This document shows positions 124 through 40,359 of a DNA stretch of 40,359 nucleotides, piece by piece (position 1 is the stretch's first letter; each line of letters begins with the position of its first letter). Source of the stretch: Bacteroidaceae bacterium (GTDB lineage: Bacteria; Bacteroidota; Bacteroidia; Bacteroidales; Bacteroidaceae); the NCBI GenBank assembly GCA_017940605.1, contig JAGAYF010000013.1:1-40359 (forward strand), given 5' to 3'. The notes below the pieces were generated by a model. That model did no database searches. It was not told where the DNA came from and worked only from the letters and a program-made list of their open reading frames with translations. The position numbers were made by a program, and so were the translations under genes.

Positions 124-345
124 TTGGTGAAGAATTCATGGGGGAGTGCAAGAGAAGCTTTCTCATATGATGACATGCGTCGTGTCCGTATCCCTCTCCC
201 CCCCTACGAGGTTCAACAAGCTATTGTAAACATCTACAAGTGTGCCAACGAAGCCAAGAAGATTGCAGAGGATGCAGACAAGAAAAGTCGCGAGGTTTGT
301 CCTGCATTGATTCAACATATCATCCACCAAACCAACAAATCTTAA
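124..345 (+). pseudogene. hsdS: 3' fragment of type I restriction specificity subunit gene
   Basis: HsdS gives a type I restriction-modification complex its DNA target. Only about 73 C-terminal codons are present. The segment around SYDDMRRVRIPLPP and the helix ending in CPALIQHI are typical of the last part of the second target-recognition domain and the conserved C-terminal helix of HsdS. A stop codon (121-123) lies directly before the fragment and the only possible start is TTG, so no complete recognition domain is encoded. The preceding 120 bases are AT-rich and show no HsdS-like reading frame, so the break looks real and not a simple point mutation. The stop is 5 bases before hsdR, the normal arrangement of an hsd operon. 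The full-length gene could lie elsewhere if this locus shuffles hsdS by inversion; that is inference. Confidence 0.8.
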
Positions 346-350
346 ACTAC

Positions 351-3300
351 ATGGCAAAAGGTAAATTCTACGAGAGCGACTACGAAGAGGCATTCGTTGA
401 CCTGCTCCAGCAAAACGGATGGGAATACACTTTTGGTGATGACCTGCACCGCCAATATGACCAGACTATCATTGAGGACGATATGCGAGCATATCTCCAA
501 AAGCGTTATGCCGATGCCCACCTAACTTCGGCAGAAGTAGAAACCATTATCGCCAACCTACGTAACATTGGCGAACCATCGCTGTACCACACCTTACGAA
601 GCACATTCACGCTGTATCGCGACGGCTTCCTGTTCCAGCGTCACAATTCCAACGAAACGCTGTGGATAGACTATCTCGACTTCAAAAGTGATGACCCAAA
701 GGAGCATAACATCTTCCGTTGCGTCAATCAGTATATTGTGTCGTATGAAGCAGGACAGAAAACACGCCGCCCAGATGTGATACTCTTTATCAACGGTATT
801 CCTGTTCTCGTAGTGGAGTTGAAAAACCCTGCTGACGAGAACGCCACCATAGCAGATGCCTATGACCAGATACATATCCGCTACAAGAGGGATATTCCGC
901 ACCTGATGAAGTATTGCGCCTTGTCGTGCATCAGCGATGCCAGCAACAGCCGACTTGGAACGACATACACCCCATATATCCACTACTACGCATGGAAGAA
1001 GGTTGAGAACGAGGATGATACTGCCAAGATGGGCATACCAGAGCTAATGACACTTATCAATGGCGCATACCGGCCCGACAGGATTCTCCAGTTGCTGCGT
1101 GATTTTACCTATTTCCCAGACTTAAAGGCAGGGAAAGAAGAAGAAATCGTCTGCCGCTATCCACAGTTCTTTGCCACACATAAGTTGTTCGACAATATTC
1201 TGAAACATCTGCGTTCAAATGGCGGTGATGGTAAAGGCGGCACATACTTTGGTGCAACGGGCTGTGGAAAGACTTATACGATGGTGTTTCTCGCCCGCCA
1301 ATTAGCTCTAAGGAGCAAAGAACTTGGTTCTCCCACAATAGTTATTCTCGTAGACCGTGAAGATTTACAGAAACAATCTGTAAAGTTGTTTGAAAACTCT
1401 ACAGACTTCCTGAGCAATGGAATGGTTCGGAAAATAGAGGATCGGGATGACCTTAAAACGGAACTTTCACAGAGAGAATCTGGTGGAGTATTTATTTGTA
1501 CCATACAGAAATTCTGTGGCGAGACGGGACTGTTGAGCGAACGCACAAACATCATCTGTTTCAGCGACGAGGCACACCGTACACAGACAAGTGTCGGTTC
1601 GAAACTGAAAATCGTGGACAAGCTACCAGAGAAAAAGGATGGTAGAACCAGTACGGCTTTAGCAGAAGATAATCCAGAAGAACAACTGGGTGCATTCGTG
1701 ACCTACGGCTTTGCAAAGTATCTGCGCGATGCTTTCCCAAACGCCACTTACGTTGGCTTTACAGGTACGCCCATCGACGAGACAGTACATGTGTTCGGCG
1801 AGGTAGTTGACAAATACACCATGAACGAGGCTGTGCGCGATGGCATCACGGTGGGTATCAAGTACATTCCTCGTTTAGCAAGGGTTGTTCTTGATGCAGC
1901 CAAGGCCGCTGCCATTGAGAAATACTATGAGCAGTGCTATGACGAGGGCGCAAAGCCAGAGGACATCAAGAAGAGCAAGGAGGCAATGGCCTCGCTTGAA
2001 GTCATCATCGGCGACCCTGAGCGACTGCGAAGGATTGCCGTTGATGTGGTTGACCATTTCGAAAAGACCTGTGCCGAGCAGCCCGAATTATTGCAGAAAG
2101 CAATGATTGTCTGCTCCAACAGACAAATTGCCTATAACCTGTACTGCAAATTCAAGGACATTCGCCCCGAATGGTTCGAGAAGAAGAAGTGTGAGGACGA
2201 AAGCAAGTTGAGCAAAGAGGAACTGGAAAAGCTCAAAGAAGTACCGTACATCAACATTGTTGCCACCCGAGGAGCCAACGACCCAGAAGACATGTATAAC
2301 GCTTTGGGTGAAGACTCCCATAGGGATATGCTGGCAGAGCAGTTCAAGAACGAGAATTCCAACTTCCGCATTGCTGTTGTTGTGGATATGTGGGTAACTG
2401 GCTTCGACGTGCCCTGCCTTTCGGTGCTTTATAACGACAAGCCCCTCCAGCGGCACAATCTGATACAGACCATATCGCGTGTGAACCGAAAGTTCCAAGT
2501 GGTTGTTCCTGACCCTGAAGGCGACCGCATAGTAGAAAAGCCAAACGGTCTAATCGTTGATTACATTGGCATCCACGAGAAGATGGAACAGGCATTGAAA
2601 CAATATGGCGGTGATGGCGCAGCGACGAGCAAGGACGATTTGGAGGCTTCAAAAATAATTTTTGACAATGAGCTTCAAATCTTAAAGGAACTGATGTGCA
2701 GATGCAATTTGAATGATTATTTCAGTGATGTTCCCTTGAAGAGATTGCTCTCATTGCAGGCTGGTGCAGAATTTGTCCTTTCACAAATTAGAGTAGAAGG
2801 GCAAAAGGTTACATTCCAAACGCTTTTTAAACAGCATGTTAAACGTATGCGATCAGCTTACAATATTTGCAACCCTGCTGGTGTCCTTTCTGACGAAGAT
2901 GTGTCTTGGGCGCAATGCTTCATGGCAATATTGTCGTATGTGAACAAGGCAATACCTGGGCAACACGATGTTGCGTCAATGAATAAAGCCGTTGAAGCAA
3001 TGGTGCGTGAGGCCATTATGTGTACTGGTGTTGAATCGTTGCTCCAGACTGACCCAGAAATAGAAATTTTTGAGGAAAACTTTGTGAAACATCTTGCAGA
3101 AATAAAGATGCCTAATACGAAGTTCCAATTACTTGTTAAGATGCTTTCTAAAGCCATCAGAGAGTATTCAAAGACAAACAAGGTCGCAGCAAAGAAGTTT
3201 GAAGATATGCTGAAAGAGCTTGTTCAACAATACAACGATCGCGACAAAGATGTATTTGGTAATAAAGTCGCAGGTGAAGCAATTGAGCAGATTCAACAAA

Positions 3301-3677
3301 AAGTTGAGAAGAAAGTACAATCTCTCACAGAAAAAATACTCGAACTATTCAAGAGCCTGAAAAAAGACAAAGAAAAGTTCAAAGAGTTAGGAATTACATT
3401 TGAAGAGAAAGCATTTTTTGATATACTTGTCGCAGTTCGCGATGAGAACAAGTTCGAGTATGCAGACGAAAAATGCGTTGACCTATCAAAGAAAATAAAA
3501 GAACTGATAGACAACACAGCTATCTATGCGGACTGGAACAACAATGACAATCTAAAGGCAGAACTAGCTGATAACATGATAGACCTGTTGTATGACAACG
3601 GCTATCCTCCTGCATGGAATGATGAAGTCTATGACAGGGTTATGGATCAAGTTAATAACTTCAAGAAGTACAATTAA
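351..3677 (+). CDS. hsdR: Type I restriction enzyme R subunit (HsdR)
   Basis: Motor and nuclease subunit of a type I restriction-modification complex: it translocates DNA using ATP and cuts unmodified DNA. The product is 1108 aa, normal for the family. The N-terminal nuclease domain has the PD-(D/E)xK pattern, with PD at residues 141-142 and ELK at 156-158. The helicase part shows Walker A GATGCGKT (301-308), the DEAH-type box SDEAH (405-409), FTGTP (from 470) and QTISRVNR (from 706). The C-terminal third is helical and charged, as in HsdR regions that bind HsdM/HsdS. The ATG at 351 is preferred over an upstream GTG (240) because the longer frame runs through the hsdS fragment in another frame. 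No hsdM lies in the window. Without an intact HsdS in cis, restriction activity depends on genes outside the window. Confidence 0.95.
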   Translation: MAKGKFYESDYEEAFVDLLQQNGWEYTFGDDLHRQYDQTIIEDDMRAYLQKRYADAHLTSAEVETIIANLRNIGEPSLYHTLRSTFTLYRDGFLFQRHNSNETLWIDYLDFKSDDPKEHNIFRCVNQYIVSYEAGQKTRRPDVILFINGIPVLVVELKNPADENATIADAYDQIHIRYKRDIPHLMKYCALSCISDASNSRLGTTYTPYIHYYAWKKVENEDDTAKMGIPELMTLINGAYRPDRILQLLRDFTYFPDLKAGKEEEIVCRYPQFFATHKLFDNILKHLRSNGGDGKGGTYFGATGCGKTYTMVFLARQLALRSKELGSPTIVILVDREDLQKQSVKLFENSTDFLSNGMVRKIEDRDDLKTELSQRESGGVFICTIQKFCGETGLLSERTNIICFSDEAHRTQTSVGSKLKIVDKLPEKKDGRTSTALAEDNPEEQLGAFVTYGFAKYLRDAFPNATYVGFTGTPIDETVHVFGEVVDKYTMNEAVRDGITVGIKYIPRLARVVLDAAKAAAIEKYYEQCYDEGAKPEDIKKSKEAMASLEVIIGDPERLRRIAVDVVDHFEKTCAEQPELLQKAMIVCSNRQIAYNLYCKFKDIRPEWFEKKKCEDESKLSKEELEKLKEVPYINIVATRGANDPEDMYNALGEDSHRDMLAEQFKNENSNFRIAVVVDMWVTGFDVPCLSVLYNDKPLQRHNLIQTISRVNRKFQVVVPDPEGDRIVEKPNGLIVDYIGIHEKMEQALKQYGGDGAATSKDDLEASKIIFDNELQILKELMCRCNLNDYFSDVPLKRLLSLQAGAEFVLSQIRVEGQKVTFQTLFKQHVKRMRSAYNICNPAGVLSDEDVSWAQCFMAILSYVNKAIPGQHDVASMNKAVEAMVREAIMCTGVESLLQTDPEIEIFEENFVKHLAEIKMPNTKFQLLVKMLSKAIREYSKTNKVAAKKFEDMLKELVQQYNDRDKDVFGNKVAGEAIEQIQQKVEKKVQSLTEKILELFKSLKKDKEKFKELGITFEEKAFFDILVAVRDENKFEYADEKCVDLSKKIKELIDNTAIYADWNNNDNLKAELADNMIDLLYDNGYPPAWNDEVYDRVMDQVNNFKKYN

Positions 3678-29212: not shown

Positions 29213-29230
29213 GATTCCTAAAACTTTTTG

Positions 29231-29320
29231 ACAAAGGTAAGCATATTTTTTCACGCAGCAAAATAATCCCCGCAAAACAGGGCGGGCTTCCTCATCCCTT
29301 GAACACAGACTGATGATGGT
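29231..29320 (-). repeat. Promoter-carrying repeat, copy 1
   Basis: Reading on the minus strand: a coding relic HHQSVFKG and stop, a GC-rich weak hairpin (CCCGC.../GCGGG), then TTTG (29262-29259), 19 bases and TACCTTTG (29239-29232), a canonical promoter that drives the GHL10 gene. It matches 38620-38709 at 84 of 90 positions and shares 36 identical bases with 32952-32987. In copy 3 the coding part is the true end of an HNH nuclease gene, so copy 1 marks the edge of a past recombination. The rest of the 29321-29504 gap shows no gene. Confidence 0.8.
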
Positions 29321-32811: not shown

Positions 32812-32964
32812 TTACTTCTTCTGCTTCTCGCCATACACCCTCTCGCAAACCTCGTCGATGCCGTCTTCCAGGATGACGGAATCCATCACATGCATGAAGG
32901 GTCCGATGTACTTTTTCAAGACAACGTTCTTAAAAAAGTGAGAAACGGGGTCGGGCTTCCTCAT
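32812..32964 (-). CDS. Small 50-codon frame, possibly a gene remnant
   Basis: On the minus strand a 50-codon frame starts inside repeat copy 2 (its ATG overlaps the TGA of the VFKG relic). It encodes MRKPDPVSHFFKNVVLKKY then IGPFMHVMDSVILEDGIDEV and ends in EKQKK and a stop at 32812. Codon use and the mixed amphipathic composition look protein-like. No homologue is recognised. It may be the last part of a larger gene whose 5' end was lost at the repeat junction, or a real short gene. Confidence 0.4.
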   Translation of the reverse strand: MRKPDPVSHFFKNVVLKKYIGPFMHVMDSVILEDGIDEVCERVYGEKQKK

Positions 32965-32987
32965 CCCTTGAACACAGACTGATGATG
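32952..32987 (-). repeat. Partial copy 2 of the promoter-carrying repeat
   Basis: 36 bases identical to 29283-29318 and close to 38672-38707. They cover only the relic of the HNH gene end (HHQSVFKG and stop, minus strand) and the next few bases; the promoter part is missing. Orientation is the same as the other copies. The stretch from 32965 to 33126 shows no gene. Confidence 0.75.
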
Positions 32988-35818: not shown

Positions 35819-35950
35819 CAGCCACTCAGTCGACATAAGTTTCATTACAGAAATTCTATCCCACTGCTGGGGATTCCACTACTTCTCATTAGAGAGAGAA
35901 TCTTTCCCCTTCTTTGTCACCCAAAGCCATATCACTCATGATTTGGCTAA

Positions 35951-35990
35951 GTCTTCTTCATTTCGCAAAATACCGATTCATTGGTATTGG
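35951..35990 (+). repeat. dif-like direct repeat, left copy, beside fic
   Basis: A 40-base repeat starting GTCTTCTTCATTTC and containing AATACC-N8-GGTATT, near-identical to 37543-37581 (one substitution, one missing A). Seen as 11-base arms around 6 bases, it resembles a XerC/XerD recombination site. Together the copies enclose the fic gene in direct orientation. No gene is seen between 35819 and 36120. Confidence 0.65.
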
Positions 35991-36120
35991 GATTTTTGAT
36001 TCATACGCACGAAGCAAGGTGAAGATGTCTTTTTTGAGGAAAAAGTTGTACCATTGTGCTCATGATAGAAATAGCCGTTATGACGTTAGAGGACACATAC
36101 AAGCATTTGTTTCGATGTTT

Positions 36121-37143
36121 CTAAAAATAGGTCTCTACCGCAAAGCGGAACTGGTCGATGAAAATCCGCTTGAAGGCAGAGAGGTTGTTCTGCTCATAGA
36201 ACAGGAGCATCGCCTTCTTGTAGTCGATGCTGCTGACCGTGCGGAACGAGATGGGGCAATAGCCGTGGGCTATCAGTATGGCATTGCTCGTGATGCGGGC
36301 AATGCGCTTGTTGCCGTCGTTGAATGCCTGAATGTAGGACAGCAGCACGAGGGCAAAGAGCGACTTCTCGAACACGTTGTCACGGCCGTTGATGAGGTCG
36401 CAGGTCTGCTGCAAGGCCTCGCGTATCTGGAACTCGTTGTCTATCGGGCGGTAGTTGGTGCCGGTGATGCCCACACGCCGCGTGCGGATGTTGCGGTCGA
36501 CACCCAGTTCCTTGACCAGCAGACTGTGGATGTCCTCTATGCGCGAGATGGTCAGATGCTCCATATAGTCGGGATTGGCCACGATGAAGTCGAGCGTGTC
36601 CTTGTGGTTAAGCAGCATGATGGCCTCCTCCTTGGTCTTTCCGTCGGCAGTCTGTTTCTCTTTCAGCAACCGCTCCGTCTCCAGCAGGGAATAGGTGTTG
36701 CCCTCAATCTGCGACGATTTCCAACTGAGGTCAATGCCCAGCCGCTCCATTTCCTTGCGCTTCTGCTCGTCGGAAAGTGTAGAGAAGTTCTTGGCAAACT
36801 GCGCCTGCAGTCCGTTCAGGGTCTCCACCTCAGAAGTGGTGAACAGGCTGACGTGGCTCAGCACATTGGGTATCAGGTCGAAGTTGTACCCCGTGCGTCC
36901 TTCGCGCTCGTCCACTTCCTTGCTGTAGTACGCATCCAAATCTACGGGCAAGAACAGTGGCGAGGCCGTGTAGCGGGTGGCGCGTGCCTTTCCCTCCACC
37001 GAGACGTAGAACGAAGCTACCAAATCGCCGAGCATACGCTTGACGGTGGCAAGGCTGACCTCACCGGCAAATGCCTCTGCAATCTGTTTGGAAGAGCACC
37101 CCGGATGCTCGCTGACGTAGGCTAAAATCGTGTCCTTATCCAT
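36121..37143 (-). CDS. Fic family protein with HTH N-terminus and altered catalytic motif
   Basis: Fic enzymes usually transfer AMP from ATP to target proteins. The 340-aa product has an N-terminal winged-helix DNA-binding region (1-60: SEHPGCSSKQIAEAFAGEVS, LATVKRMLGDL), an inhibitory helix motif SSQIEGN (143-149, fitting S/TxxxEG/N), and a Fic core motif QAFNDGNKRIAR (272-283). The canonical motif starts with His (HxFxDGNxR); here the position is Gln272, so classic AMP transfer is doubtful unless another residue serves. Base composition is richer in GC than the neighbours, and dif-like repeats flank it, suggesting a cassette. Two GGCTCACA direct repeats and an inverted TGAGCCA around its promoter are likely self-binding sites. 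Confidence 0.9.
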   Translation of the reverse strand: MDKDTILAYVSEHPGCSSKQIAEAFAGEVSLATVKRMLGDLVASFYVSVEGKARATRYTASPLFLPVDLDAYYSKEVDEREGRTGYNFDLIPNVLSHVSLFTTSEVETLNGLQAQFAKNFSTLSDEQKRKEMERLGIDLSWKSSQIEGNTYSLLETERLLKEKQTADGKTKEEAIMLLNHKDTLDFIVANPDYMEHLTISRIEDIHSLLVKELGVDRNIRTRRVGITGTNYRPIDNEFQIREALQQTCDLINGRDNVFEKSLFALVLLSYIQAFNDGNKRIARITSNAILIAHGYCPISFRTVSSIDYKKAMLLFYEQNNLSAFKRIFIDQFRFAVETYF

Positions 37144-37157
37144 AACTGTTACTTTCT

Positions 37158-37209
37158 ATTGGCTCACAAAGTTACAAAGATTGGCTCACATTAACTATCA
37201 AATGAGCCA
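37158..37209 (-). promoter_or_regulatory. fic promoter with TTGGCTCACA operators
   Basis: The minus-strand -7 box TAACTTTG (37174-37167) sits among three copies of one motif: ATTGGCTCACA at 37158-37168 and 37180-37190 (22 bases apart, two helical turns), and inverted TGAGCCA at 37203-37209. The arrangement suits repression by the HTH domain of the Fic protein itself. Confidence 0.65.
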
Positions 37210-37542
37210 CTTTCTGCTAATCCTTGCACCGATTTAACAAATCTTGTCAAGATTGGGCACAAAAAGCTGTATTTTCATCAACTTTCAGCAGTCACAGCAG
37301 TGCATTATCCCATCATGTCACCTATCTATGACCCCATGTTGCGAGCCGTCCCACATACTTCTTCCTTTCTCCATCATCAAAACACCACCCAAACATTGCA
37401 CACACAACCTCGTTTTGATGTTTAAGAAAGTTAAAAACGCTAAATCTTCATCTTTCACAAACTCATCAGAATTCACGTCATCACTTTTCTACCTTTTAAT
37501 ATGCAAGTCGCTGATATAAAACGCTTTGAAAACACGAGGATT
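37210..37542. other. Intergenic, nothing recognised
   Basis: AT-rich, low-complexity DNA upstream of fic with scattered stops in all frames and no promoter or RNA signal that I can support. Confidence 0.5.
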
Positions 37543-37581
37543 GTCTTCTTCATTTCTCAAATACCGATTCATTGGTATTGG
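37543..37581 (+). repeat. dif-like direct repeat, right copy, beside fic
   Basis: 39 bases matching 35951-35990, with the same dyad AATACC-N8-GGTATT. The sequences diverge at once on the right side and also on the left before GTCTTC. The 37582-37691 stretch holds no gene. Confidence 0.65.
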
Positions 37582-37691
37582 CCATACAATTGAATCCGTA
37601 ACCTGGGCCTTGCAGGGGTCTTCATCCTGCATGTCCTAAATGACACAAAAAGTGGACATCCTTTGATTTGTTCATATACTAATTGTCCTTG

Positions 37692-38564
37692 TCAATTCTT
37701 TTGTTCTTCTTCTGGTGCAGGAAGCGTTTCTGTATCAGCGCCCTCAATGGGCTTAATGTAGTCAGATACCCGTTCTGGTGAGACAACAGAACGGCCAAGA
37801 CGACGCTCCATCGTTTGACGTGCATCGCGGGCGACACTACCTCCCTCTTGTGCAATACGCTGACTCTCCGTCATTGTCTGAGGATTAGAATGACGAGAGT
37901 ATTCCGTAGTAGCTACCTCTGCAAGGGTGTTGAGAGCCAGTTCTATGTTAGTCATGTTGTCGCGCAGATTCTCTTTTGTCAGACCTTTGTAGCGTTTATA
38001 CTGTCCTGTGGTCATACCGCTCCACGCTTTGGTGAGGACGTTGGTGAGTATGGCAAAGTCGCGTGATTCGTGGATGCCGGAGCGATGCCATTCGTCCGTC
38101 AGTTCCTTACGCATCTCAATAGAGCGCATCCGTTCATTTATCCAACGGTCACTATAGCCTTGACGGCGATAGTCCTCTACTGCCATTTGGAATGTCAGTT
38201 CGGGATCTATCATCTGGTCAATACGTTGGCTGCCCAACTCCGCTAACCATTGGCGTATAGGTTCTGCGTTCCTGGAAGGGATAGACTGAATGATGCGGAA
38301 GATACCTTCTAGGTCGGCGGCTTGGGTTTTGTATATTTTCCCATCAACAGCCATCATTCGAGTAGGGGTACAAATTGTACCCCACCTGGAATTAAGTTCT
38401 GCATCACGTGCCCGCATTCGTTTGATGTACTGCCTGACATCAGCACTATCGGTCAAAACTTGTACTATGTCTGCAACAGAGAAATAGTATTTCTCTTTCT
38501 CTGCATCCCAAACGATGCGTACTTTCTTGCCCTCAAATAGCTGTATTGTGTAATTCTCGTCCAC
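37692..38564 (-). CDS. Bro-N domain phage antirepressor-like protein
   Basis: A 290-aa protein. The N-terminal Bro-N domain (about 5-112) is recognisable from VRIVWDAEKEKYYFSVADIV, the VRQYIKRMRARD helix, and IFRIIQSIPSRNAEPIRQWLA. Such domains bind DNA in phage antirepressors. The C-terminal half is helical with a conserved-looking DRWINERMRSIEMRKELTDEW stretch, a form frequent in Bacteroidetes genomic islands. The start is GTG, chosen because GGAAG lies 5 bases upstream and no other ATG gives a whole domain. It is driven by the promoter in repeat copy 3 and may regulate island genes; its target is unknown. Confidence 0.88.
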   Translation of the reverse strand: MDENYTIQLFEGKKVRIVWDAEKEKYYFSVADIVQVLTDSADVRQYIKRMRARDAELNSRWGTICTPTRMMAVDGKIYKTQAADLEGIFRIIQSIPSRNAEPIRQWLAELGSQRIDQMIDPELTFQMAVEDYRRQGYSDRWINERMRSIEMRKELTDEWHRSGIHESRDFAILTNVLTKAWSGMTTGQYKRYKGLTKENLRDNMTNIELALNTLAEVATTEYSRHSNPQTMTESQRIAQEGGSVARDARQTMERRLGRSVVSPERVSDYIKPIEGADTETLPAPEEEQKN

Positions 38565-38619
38565 TTTACTTCCTATTTTTATTTGCTAAATTCCGATTTC
38601 TCTATTCGTAAATTTGTTT

Positions 38620-38709
38620 ACAAAGGTAAGCACATTTTTTCACGCAGCAAAATAATCCCTGTAAAACAGGGCGGGCTTCCTCATCCCTTGAATACAGACT
38701 GCCGATGGT
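38620..38709 (-). repeat. Promoter-carrying repeat, copy 3
   Basis: 84 of 90 positions agree with 29231-29320, same orientation. On the minus strand it covers the last codons of the HNH nuclease gene, a hairpin CCCTGT/ACAGGG (38657-38671), and the promoter TTTG (38651-38648), 19 bases, TACCTTTG (38628-38621), which drives the Bro-N gene. Confidence 0.8.
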
Positions 38710-39664
38710 ACTCCAAGTACTCTACCCTCGAATCATTCAAGGGAAGAAACTGAAAAAATTGATTCTCCTTAATTCCTATACGATCTCTTACCTGACGGGA
38801 AAGCCAATTGGAAATATTGACACGTTTGTCATTGCTAAAAGTAATGTATCCACGGTCAAACAACTTGTCATAGAGCGGCGAAAGAATAAAACCGTTGTTC
38901 GGGTCTATGCGCTCCTTCACTGTTGAAACAGCCCATGGTTTTATATGACTGGCTATCAGCAATGATTCTTCATTTATCATTGTAATAGGACAAAAAGGAC
39001 ACTCATCCAAAAGTTTCCTACGATATTCCTCCTGCCCCTCACGACCATATTTGATGGGTAGATCTTTCTTGTTGCCTTTTTTTGTTGACAACAACACTTT
39101 TTCCTTAGCTGCACCATAATTTTCGATATATGATTTCCTTTTTTCCATCTCCTCAAAATCAGCAAACAATTTTAGGTAAAAGATAGGATTTCCATTATAA
39201 TCAAGACGCATGACCGATATGTACGTGACAAGCGGTAACGATATTTCCCTTATCAGCTTATAGATATCATCCGACGAATTAATATAACCACGTGAACCAG
39301 ATATCTGAGACTGCTCCTTAATTATAAAAAACGCCATTTCATTGGGTAATGCGTTTATCTTTCCCATCCGTTCCGACCACAACGTTATCATTTGTTCCTT
39401 ACCTCGATACTCCTGTGACGGAGAAAAATATTCAGCCTTGATGGCATTCATATATGCTTTCAAATCCTGGCGGAGTACAAAACATTTCACTGTAAATCCC
39501 TTTTCACCGAAAAAACTTTCCATTTTGAAACGAGATCCCACGTATAATTTAGCTTCACCATTGCCGTCACCCAATTTGTTTTTTGACATCACCCAGCTAT
39601 CAGCAACAGTAATAGGTGTCTCAAGCGTGTCACTAAACGTAAATTTTTCTCCTCCTATTATCAT
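38681..39664 (-). CDS. HNH endonuclease, probable type II restriction enzyme
   Basis: A 327-aa protein whose last 110 residues hold an HNH_2-type nuclease domain: CPFC (222-225), SHIKPWA with His240, [19 protein letters not shown] (254-272) with Asn256/257 and Asp270. The final His of the classic motif is replaced, as usual in this subfamily. The N-terminal 200 residues have no recognised domain and may define the target. Its ATG overlaps the stop of the cytosine methyltransferase gene by 4 bases (ATGA), which pairs them as a restriction-modification system. The end VFKG lies inside repeat copy 3. With the partner methyltransferase truncated, the nuclease may be silent, or the host may be protected otherwise. 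Confidence 0.88.
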
Positions 39665-40239
39665 ATTTTTACTCCAAACTTAGTTATGTCCAATTGTTTA
39701 AGGATGGCAATCAATACATCAACAACAATGCTATTGCCTGCCTGCTGATACATGGAAGTATCTGACACCACAATCTGAAACGTATCCTTAAAACCCATCA
39801 GTCGCAGACATTCTCGTGGAGTAAGTTTGCGTATGCGGCCTTTATGCGTCACATAATTATCCACTCCTGCCCTGTGCATTTTATGCATAGACTGCAATAA
39901 TGGCCGAGCTACAAGAAGGTCTGTCTTTGTTGATGTTTTGAAATTCTTAGTTCCACTCGCCAAGACGTATTTGGCGACCTTGTCTGACAAATAATATTTT
40001 TCTTCAACATCTCTCACATCAAAAATAAACTCATCAAATTCTTCATTTGTTGGTGTCAGTTCTGACTCAGGATGATAAATAAAATCTCCATGCCAATTAA
40101 ACTGTTGATTACGTTTCTGACAAAGCTGTATCTCACCATTTATCTGTGTGTAATATTTTTCGCGATTTTTGTGACTGGTTACAAACTTTATACCCTTTTC
40201 TTTTAGGAAATACTTCGTATACCCGTTGGCGGAATTAAA
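39661..40239 (-). pseudogene. 5' truncated C5-cytosine DNA methyltransferase
   Basis: Only the C-terminal part of a 5-methylcytosine methyltransferase remains. The reading frame is open from about 40239, and from roughly 40220 it shows [20 protein letters not shown], the target-recognition region, [10 protein letters not shown], then motif [16 protein letters not shown] and motif [11 protein letters not shown]. The catalytic PCQ and S-adenosylmethionine-binding motifs are missing. At the 5' side the sequence becomes the end of an IS982 transposase (stop at 40235), so the insertion has cut the gene; the exact junction lies within about 40218-40235. A late GTG (40017) could start a meaningless fragment. 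Confidence 0.88.
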
Positions 40240-40359
40240 TCAGTGCATACTTAATCCTACCAATTGGCTTGTTGTTAATGTGGTTGATGTATTGCAATGC
40301 GGTCAGCGCACTGACTTTGCCAATGATTCTGGCAAACAGACCGCAGGTGTCTATCGCAT
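40235..40359 (-). mobile_element. Partial IS982 family insertion sequence (transposase end)
   Basis: On the minus strand the frame from the window edge encodes CGLFARIIGKVSALTALQYI, then [16 protein letters not shown] and a stop at 40235. This is the C-terminal signature of IS982 transposases (LYARI...TALQYIN...PIxxIKYAL). The rest of the element is beyond the window. The inverted terminal repeat probably lies at about 40218-40234 (CCGCCAACGGG region). Confidence 0.88.

Follow-up and report, generated by a model that had tools for sequence, protein, structure and literature searches.

The fic gene toward the right end of the window, the 40,359-bp stretch of Bacteroidaceae DNA analysed here and the whole of contig C46, is on balance probably an accessory one-gene module that was added to a small defence island by additive recombination at an anchor sequence. 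The gene lies between two direct repeats (copies A and B), and a third copy of the repeat (copy C) is present in the same genome near the start of contig C22. The features of the locus are as follows.

35907-35990, no strand: repeat copy A, 84 bp, on the 3' side of fic, left part plus 40-bp core
35969-35988, no strand: dyad AATACC-8-GGTATT in copy A
36121-37143, minus strand: fic gene, 340 aa, Fic/DOC domain (PF02661, E = 3.9e-12)
37543-37586, no strand: repeat copy B, on the 5' side of fic, core plus right part (GGCCATA)
37560-37579, no strand: dyad AATACC-8-GGTATT in copy B
37692-38564, minus strand: Bro-N/DinD-like gene (PF02498, 1e-7; PADLOC PDC-S13, 4.6e-116)
38681-39664, minus strand: HNH restriction endonuclease-like gene (PF13391, 7.1e-11; PADLOC HNH, 5.4e-24)
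39661-40210, minus strand: C-terminal part of dcm, a C5-cytosine methyltransferase gene (TIGR00675, 5.6e-19)
40221-40359, no strand: contig-terminal part of a repeated element that is probably an IS
Contig C22, L001 84-722: N-terminal part of dcm, after which comes copy C

A self-comparison bore out the claim of the first-pass annotation that two direct copies of a 39-40 base sequence enclose one fic gene: the copies at 35951-35990 (40 bp) and 37543-37581 (39 bp) are 95% identical (E = 3e-10), with a spacing of 1592 bp. Within this interval fic is the sole gene with a recognised domain, and no integrase gene is found there. The gene is also GC-richer, as had been noted, with values of 0.52-0.57 in 500-base windows against 0.44-0.47 in the 1 kb to the left and 0.40-0.45 around copy B; the GC of the Bro-N gene further right reaches 0.51. 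The Fic protein matches the PADLOC models PDC-S04 (2.3e-15) and SoFic (1.6e-14), of which the 'PDC-S' series is presumed to represent candidate defence genes, and the module is probably defence-related. The N-terminus of the protein is weakly helix-turn-helix-like (PF03965, 0.0007, below the cut-off of that model). At residue 272 the His of the Fic motif is changed to Gln (YIQAFNDGNKR); Q272 is invariant in 10 aligned homologues and aligns with the motif His of human FICD. The family may not consist of ordinary AMP-transferases, although the protein retains the motif SSQIEGN, which we take to be inhibitory-helix-like. Upstream of the gene a putative promoter, TAACTTTG, was recognised by eye on the minus strand at 37167-37174, and it presumably fits the Bacteroidetes -7 element. 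Inspection by eye also revealed the sequence TTGGCTCACA twice (37159-37168 and 37181-37190) and an inverted TGAGCC at 37203-37208. The interval 37159-37208, just above the fic start codon, is perhaps an operator-like array through which the N-terminal part of the protein would regulate its own gene.

The three repeat copies share a core and differ in what surrounds it. Copy C, ~89 bp long, consists of a left part, the core and a right part; the left part recurs in A, and the right part recurs in B and is missing from A. Since C possesses both the left and the right part, it looks like an uninterrupted site. Copy A is 97.6% identical to C over 84 bp, and copy B is 95.6% identical to C over 45 columns and 95% identical to A over 40. 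A 23-bp stretch containing the palindrome is identical in all three copies, and the differences between A and B all fall on one side. The copies have the same orientation in their contigs. At the level of sequence, this is the pattern expected if one full copy had received an insertion that duplicated 40 bp.

The repeat appears to be specific to this locus. When up to 3 mismatches were allowed, the 21-base core occurred at three sites in the 2.0-Mb assembly (73% complete), all of them exact and corresponding to A, B and C, and these were likewise the only matches below E = 0.05 to a 96-base query in the same genome. The first-pass annotation had proposed a search for the repeat with other cargo, but beyond the three copies in its own genome a search with the 96-base query found nothing at E <= 0.001 in the 398 other genomes of the family. 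No exact match to the core was found in genome_contigs or viral_contigs, collections that may omit records near the window's genome. Among 60 other genomes, the 21-base core with 3 mismatches gave 12 matches in 9 genomes, none with fewer mismatches, and a reversed-core control gave 6 matches in 6 genomes; these matches are little above chance. Occurrence of the repeat at this locus only had been named as an observation that would count against an Xer-mobilised module, and it is probably what we find, the three copies being likely to lie all at one locus. Folding of the repeats as RNA gave z values of -2.4 to +0.8 over five folds, the lowest belonging to plus-strand copy A, which 5 of 200 shuffles equalled; a terminator role is only suggested. 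Self-comparison also disclosed other palindromic intergenic repeats in the genome, and in the window a second family of direct repeats (29214-29320, 32943-32987 and 38604-38709; 45-107 bp, 88-96% identical) that partly overlaps ORF ends.

Contigs C46 and C22 probably adjoin, since their ends hold different parts of one dcm gene. The two parts match a single gene that lies beside an HNH homologue in G062, G253, G195 and G135, and cover residues 1-197 and ~252 to the end in three of these genomes; in the remaining one, alignment of the N-terminal part starts at residue 46. C22 opens with ~120 bases that have no match to dcm or to the IS, so something more would lie between the two contigs. At the end of C46, 137-139 bases of the element at 40221-40359 are identical at the ends of contigs C51, C41 and C21, and a matching 20-bp inverted end of the probable IS is present in C41 and C6. 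The left end of C22 was considered as the other end of this IS, and the comparison gave no support. The join suggests the locus order C-[dcm, HNH, Bro-N]-B-[fic]-A, in which repeats of this kind, B and C, appear to flank a dcm/HNH/Bro-N module as well. It is this second module that carries restriction-modification cargo (the dcm parts and the HNH nuclease); the fic module carries none. An HsdR-like type I restriction gene with HSDR_N, SWI2_SNF2 and T1RH-like_C domains is also found at 240-3677, the left end of the contig.

To the right of copy C lie a 116-aa gene and then a TonB receptor gene. The receptor is present in 8 of the 18 other genus genomes, with a related small gene beside it in 6 of 7 relatives examined, and the left neighbour gene of the window's locus is absent from all 18. 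An empty site for the window was not found among the 7 relatives with the TonB receptor, which are too distant to align at the DNA level. A similar pair of small gene (compared by eye) and TonB receptor is found at 2132-4677 of L211 and 1374-3944 of L063. Such a pair borders a repeat-flanked fic module in L211 and copy C in the present genome, on opposite sides, and the site is perhaps a shared hotspot.

The first-pass annotation had likened the arrangement to the Xer-mobilised pdif modules of plasmids. One part of that comparison holds, namely a one-gene module between direct repeats, seemingly within a chain of modules; the Xer/dif nature of the repeats found no support. The 11+6+11 dyad that had been described reaches at best 8/11 pairs in A and 7/11 in B, scores matched by 6.8% and 30%, respectively, of 2000 single-base shuffles, and the actual symmetry is AATACC-8-GGTATT, with 8/10 pairs when read as 10+10. 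Nor are the repeats dif-like: A and B have 14/28 and 16/28 mismatches to the 28-base E. coli dif, and the shuffled means are 14.2 and 14.5. A pattern search for the chromosomal dif over 19 genus genomes gave real matches no more frequently than the control. With no dif resemblance, no 11+6+11 dyad, a locus-specific repeat and other repeats around fic homologues, the Xer/dif reading was not supported, and nothing in the sequence appears to demand an Xer system.

Homologues of fic (E <= 1e-30) are present in 31 of 399 family genomes, that of the window included, and are absent from the other 18 genomes of its genus; those in other genera are up to 85% identical. This absence from its own genus, together with the high identity in other genera, suggests that fic has spread horizontally. 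When the window locus is compared with homologous loci, the borders of DNA similarity coincide, exactly or nearly, with those of the coding region, the exception being one 75-bp DNA match elsewhere in L028. Relatives of the family were also seen on five viral contigs (L218-L222; 54-66% identity in the best segment), and therefore phages, or misfiled host contigs, may carry it.

Direct repeats are enriched around these genes. From genome_contigs the best 80 of 521 related fic loci were taken, of which 79 were used (the partial L213 was left out) together with the window; 12 of the resulting 80 were dropped for having less than 600 bp of flank on one side, leaving 68 loci, the window included. 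Control ORFs of 200 to about 670 aa came from the same loci with the same flank and are not strictly independent. At the cut-off for tight direct repeats, at least 34 bits, repeats enclosed 12 of the 68 fic genes and 5 of 249 other ORFs (Fisher p = 1e-5), and with the window excluded 11 of 67 against 5 of 249 (p = 3e-5). A first, partly overlapping fic set gave 4/26 against 2/155 other ORFs, likewise at >=34 bits; the G and L series overlap in part and the two fic-locus counts are not independent. Direct comparison of the upstream with the downstream flank gave 13/68 at >=34 bits, and swapped flank pairs from different loci gave 0/398 at 34 bits and 1/398 at 28 bits. Inverted repeats surrounded fic in 1/68 loci at >=34 bits and in 4/68 at 28-30 bits. 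The remaining 56 of the 68 fic loci had no direct repeats at 34 bits.

Among other fic loci scoring at least 28 bits the repeats are 20-90 bp long. At >=34 bits, 8 of the 12 loci have a downstream copy that begins no more than 30 bp from the fic stop; in the window this copy lies ~130 bp from the stop. Relatives of the genome's three integrases were found in just 2 of the 68 fic loci, a weak test, as distant integrases can be missed with these three queries. All of the 12 repeat-bearing loci but L155 are draft or metagenome-assembled, the window too, and some repeats are possibly assembly faults, although the nifJ modules described below recur across genomes. A CRISPR-like array with 37-bp repeats (GTCTTAATCCTTATTATACYGGAACACACTCTACGAG), recognised by eye at 8777-11750 of L071, starts beside the fic homologue of G237.

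By eye, the repeats differ from locus to locus and correspond to local gene ends, gene starts or terminators. In L155 (Parabacteroides bouchesdurhonensis strain Marseille-P3763) the repeat is the 3' end of the preceding gene (51 bp, 96%), and gene 3' ends likewise form the repeats of L189 and L068. L154 repeats a terminator-like hairpin with a T run; in L211 the repeat covers the start of the following gene and the DNA upstream of it, in L157 it is a gene start, and elsewhere it is other local DNA. Four of the five repeat-flanked ORFs other than fic match phage-defence candidates (a YhcG nuclease, PDC-S02; two AAA_14 ATPases, PDC-S01; and a second Fic type, SoFic), and the fifth, a peptidase between 206-bp repeats in L189, matches none. 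L074 has the 3' end of an exonuclease gene in three copies, and placed between these are a RhuM-Fic gene (PDC-S23) and an Mrr-like nuclease.

One such gene end could be followed through several genomes. In G164 fic comes after a gene that we call nifJ, presumably encoding pyruvate:ferredoxin oxidoreductase, and a ~75-bp stretch across the nifJ 3' end occurs again directly after fic. The contig of L144 starts within nifJ and carries a 511-aa gene, fic and an AAA ATPase gene, set apart by three orphan nifJ ends. We assembled 43 loci from the top 40 regions of a search with matches in 225 of 250 genomes, one of these regions being a second nifJ-like gene of G164, together with L068, L144 and L141; L253-L281, L068 and L144 were compared by the last 54 bases of nifJ. 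Orphan copies of the nifJ 3' end, 24-1230 bp long, are present in at least 8 of the 43 loci (L253, L255, L257, L258, L260, L267, L144 and L068). Most of them end at or near the nifJ stop codon, and their starts are variable. Orphan fragments of 690 bp in L260 (G149) and 1230 bp in L253 (G253) separate accessory genes and lie in open frames of 150 and 434 aa, respectively. Orphan copies have terminator-like hairpins of their own, and the same hairpin follows intact nifJ elsewhere and an orphan copy in another genome.

The modules between these copies have been shuffled. G149 and G031 share a 1.16-kb module at 99% identity, which stands first in the G149 array and second in the G031 array, and the AAA module of L144 is 99.2% identical to that of G119. 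The fic module is at position 1 in G164 and at position 2 in L144 (86% identical), and in G031 a 278-bp remnant of it follows the last orphan. An empty state is seen in G188 (L259), where nifJ, terminator and the DNA found in G149 beyond its last orphan copy run on unbroken; with ~75 extra bases, the G188 flank is also that of the first orphan copies in G102 and G149. This empty state could be a secondary loss between repeats. Because duplications exceed 1 kb with one variable boundary, and terminators are exchanged and modules shuffled, the arrays favour homologous recombination at the gene end over a recombinase acting on a short core. They would bear on the mechanism in the window by analogy, the anchor and the genera being others.

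In the reading that we prefer for the window, the ancestral site would have been one full intergenic element of ~89 bp, as in copy C. Entry of the fic module inside this element would have produced the left part with the core (A) and the core with the right part (B), leaving 40 bp doubled. The incoming DNA would have consisted of a gene and an anchor, which would recombine with a resident copy of the anchor, either by homologous recombination or through homology at one end and illegitimate joining at the other, so that each addition would contribute one gene and one anchor copy. We infer the order of these events in the window, and likewise the pathway, which may have involved RecA, homology at a single end with illegitimate joining, or slippage. 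Two features count against this reading: the 40-bp core is near the usual lower length limit for RecA, and the palindrome within it could be used by a site-specific recombinase.

A cassette of the latter kind, in which a host tyrosine recombinase (XerCD or another) would use AATACC-8-GGTATT to insert and excise a fic circle in the manner of pdif, is unlikely to account for the locus. The invariance of the palindrome-bearing 23 bp in A, B and C, with the A/B differences to one side, and three matches to the tyrosine recombinase family in this genome are consistent with it; against it stand the lack of dif resemblance, the near-chance level of the 3-mismatch matches to which the repeat is limited elsewhere, the different repeats at fic homologues and, from the weak three-query test, the rarity of integrase relatives at fic loci. 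Target-site duplication by a cut-and-insert process, with staggered nicks 20-90 bp apart that are filled in around a donor devoid of homology, would explain why the repeats are local sequence of variable length enclosing a gene with its upstream region, why their downstream copy so often adjoins the fic stop and why A and B in the window sum to one C-like copy. We consider this distinctly improbable, in that nifJ copies reach 1230 bp, and terminators are shared between intact nifJ and orphans across genomes, for which fill-in alone is insufficient. It is more improbable still that dispersed REP-like intergenic repeats, of which the other palindromic repeats of this genome might be examples, happen to have fic between two of them: there are just three copies in 2.0 Mb, in one orientation, two of them at fic and one beside the other part of the adjoining dcm, and direct repeats are enriched around fic genes generally.

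Additive recombination at an anchor, if it operates more widely, raises the question of a class. We suggest tentatively, and with more doubt than confidence, that single-gene phage-defence candidates of Bacteroidota are integrase-less mobile cassettes that stack by using gene ends and terminators as adapters, with no dedicated recombinase; each arrival would leave one more adapter copy. The movement of lone defence genes between genomes without a mobility gene has so far been poorly explained, and the repeats provide a simple sequence signature to search for. The nifJ arrays present intact, empty and stacked states of one site, which makes the process directly testable in culturable Bacteroides or Parabacteroides.

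Several known systems resemble the arrangement described here. Insertion with long target duplication is credited to Nobusato 2000 and Furuta 2010 by papers that cite them; according to these papers it concerns restriction-modification genes and was seen first between two Helicobacter pylori strains (PMC3031569, PMC4978471, PMC1643837). The modules described here are similar in that one or more genes are enclosed by direct repeats of the target that are long and vary in length (40 bp in the window), with restriction-modification cargo in the second module; they differ in that the cargo consists mainly of single genes (Fic, RhuM-Fic, YhcG, AAA ATPase), stacked at some sites as multi-module arrays, and in that the anchors are gene 3' ends of up to 1.2 kb with terminators exchanged between copies. 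The pdif modules of Acinetobacter plasmids are Xer-associated and use one kind of 28-bp dif-like site. Like them, the modules here are short, lie between direct repeats, lack a recombinase of their own and form chains, whereas the repeat here is locus-specific and not dif-like.

The microcin H47 island of E. coli is small and mobile, encodes no recombinase and leaves the chromosome by way of its direct repeats; 16 site-specific recombinases, RecET and proteins of the RecA pathway were reportedly tested, with none apparently involved (PMC5426353). Short direct repeats and the lack of an own recombinase are common to both cases; H47 is one island, whereas the modules here occupy several loci, are single genes and are known from sequence. 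In homology-facilitated illegitimate recombination, as outlined in PMC2884548, one-sided homology anchors foreign DNA and the other end joins illegitimately; the same paper gives 10-18% of small variable segments in three species as having flanking repeats of 5 bp or more, mostly <30 bp. Such a process would give one variable boundary, as in the nifJ fragments; it has been described for transformable bacteria such as Acinetobacter and is not known from Bacteroidota. In the literature searched, consisting of open-licence papers, with most subscription journals outside it, the pattern was met for restriction-modification genes and for no Fic- or AAA-type single defence candidate of Bacteroidota. 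The known pattern of restriction-modification genes is extended here to single-gene phage-defence candidates of Bacteroidota.
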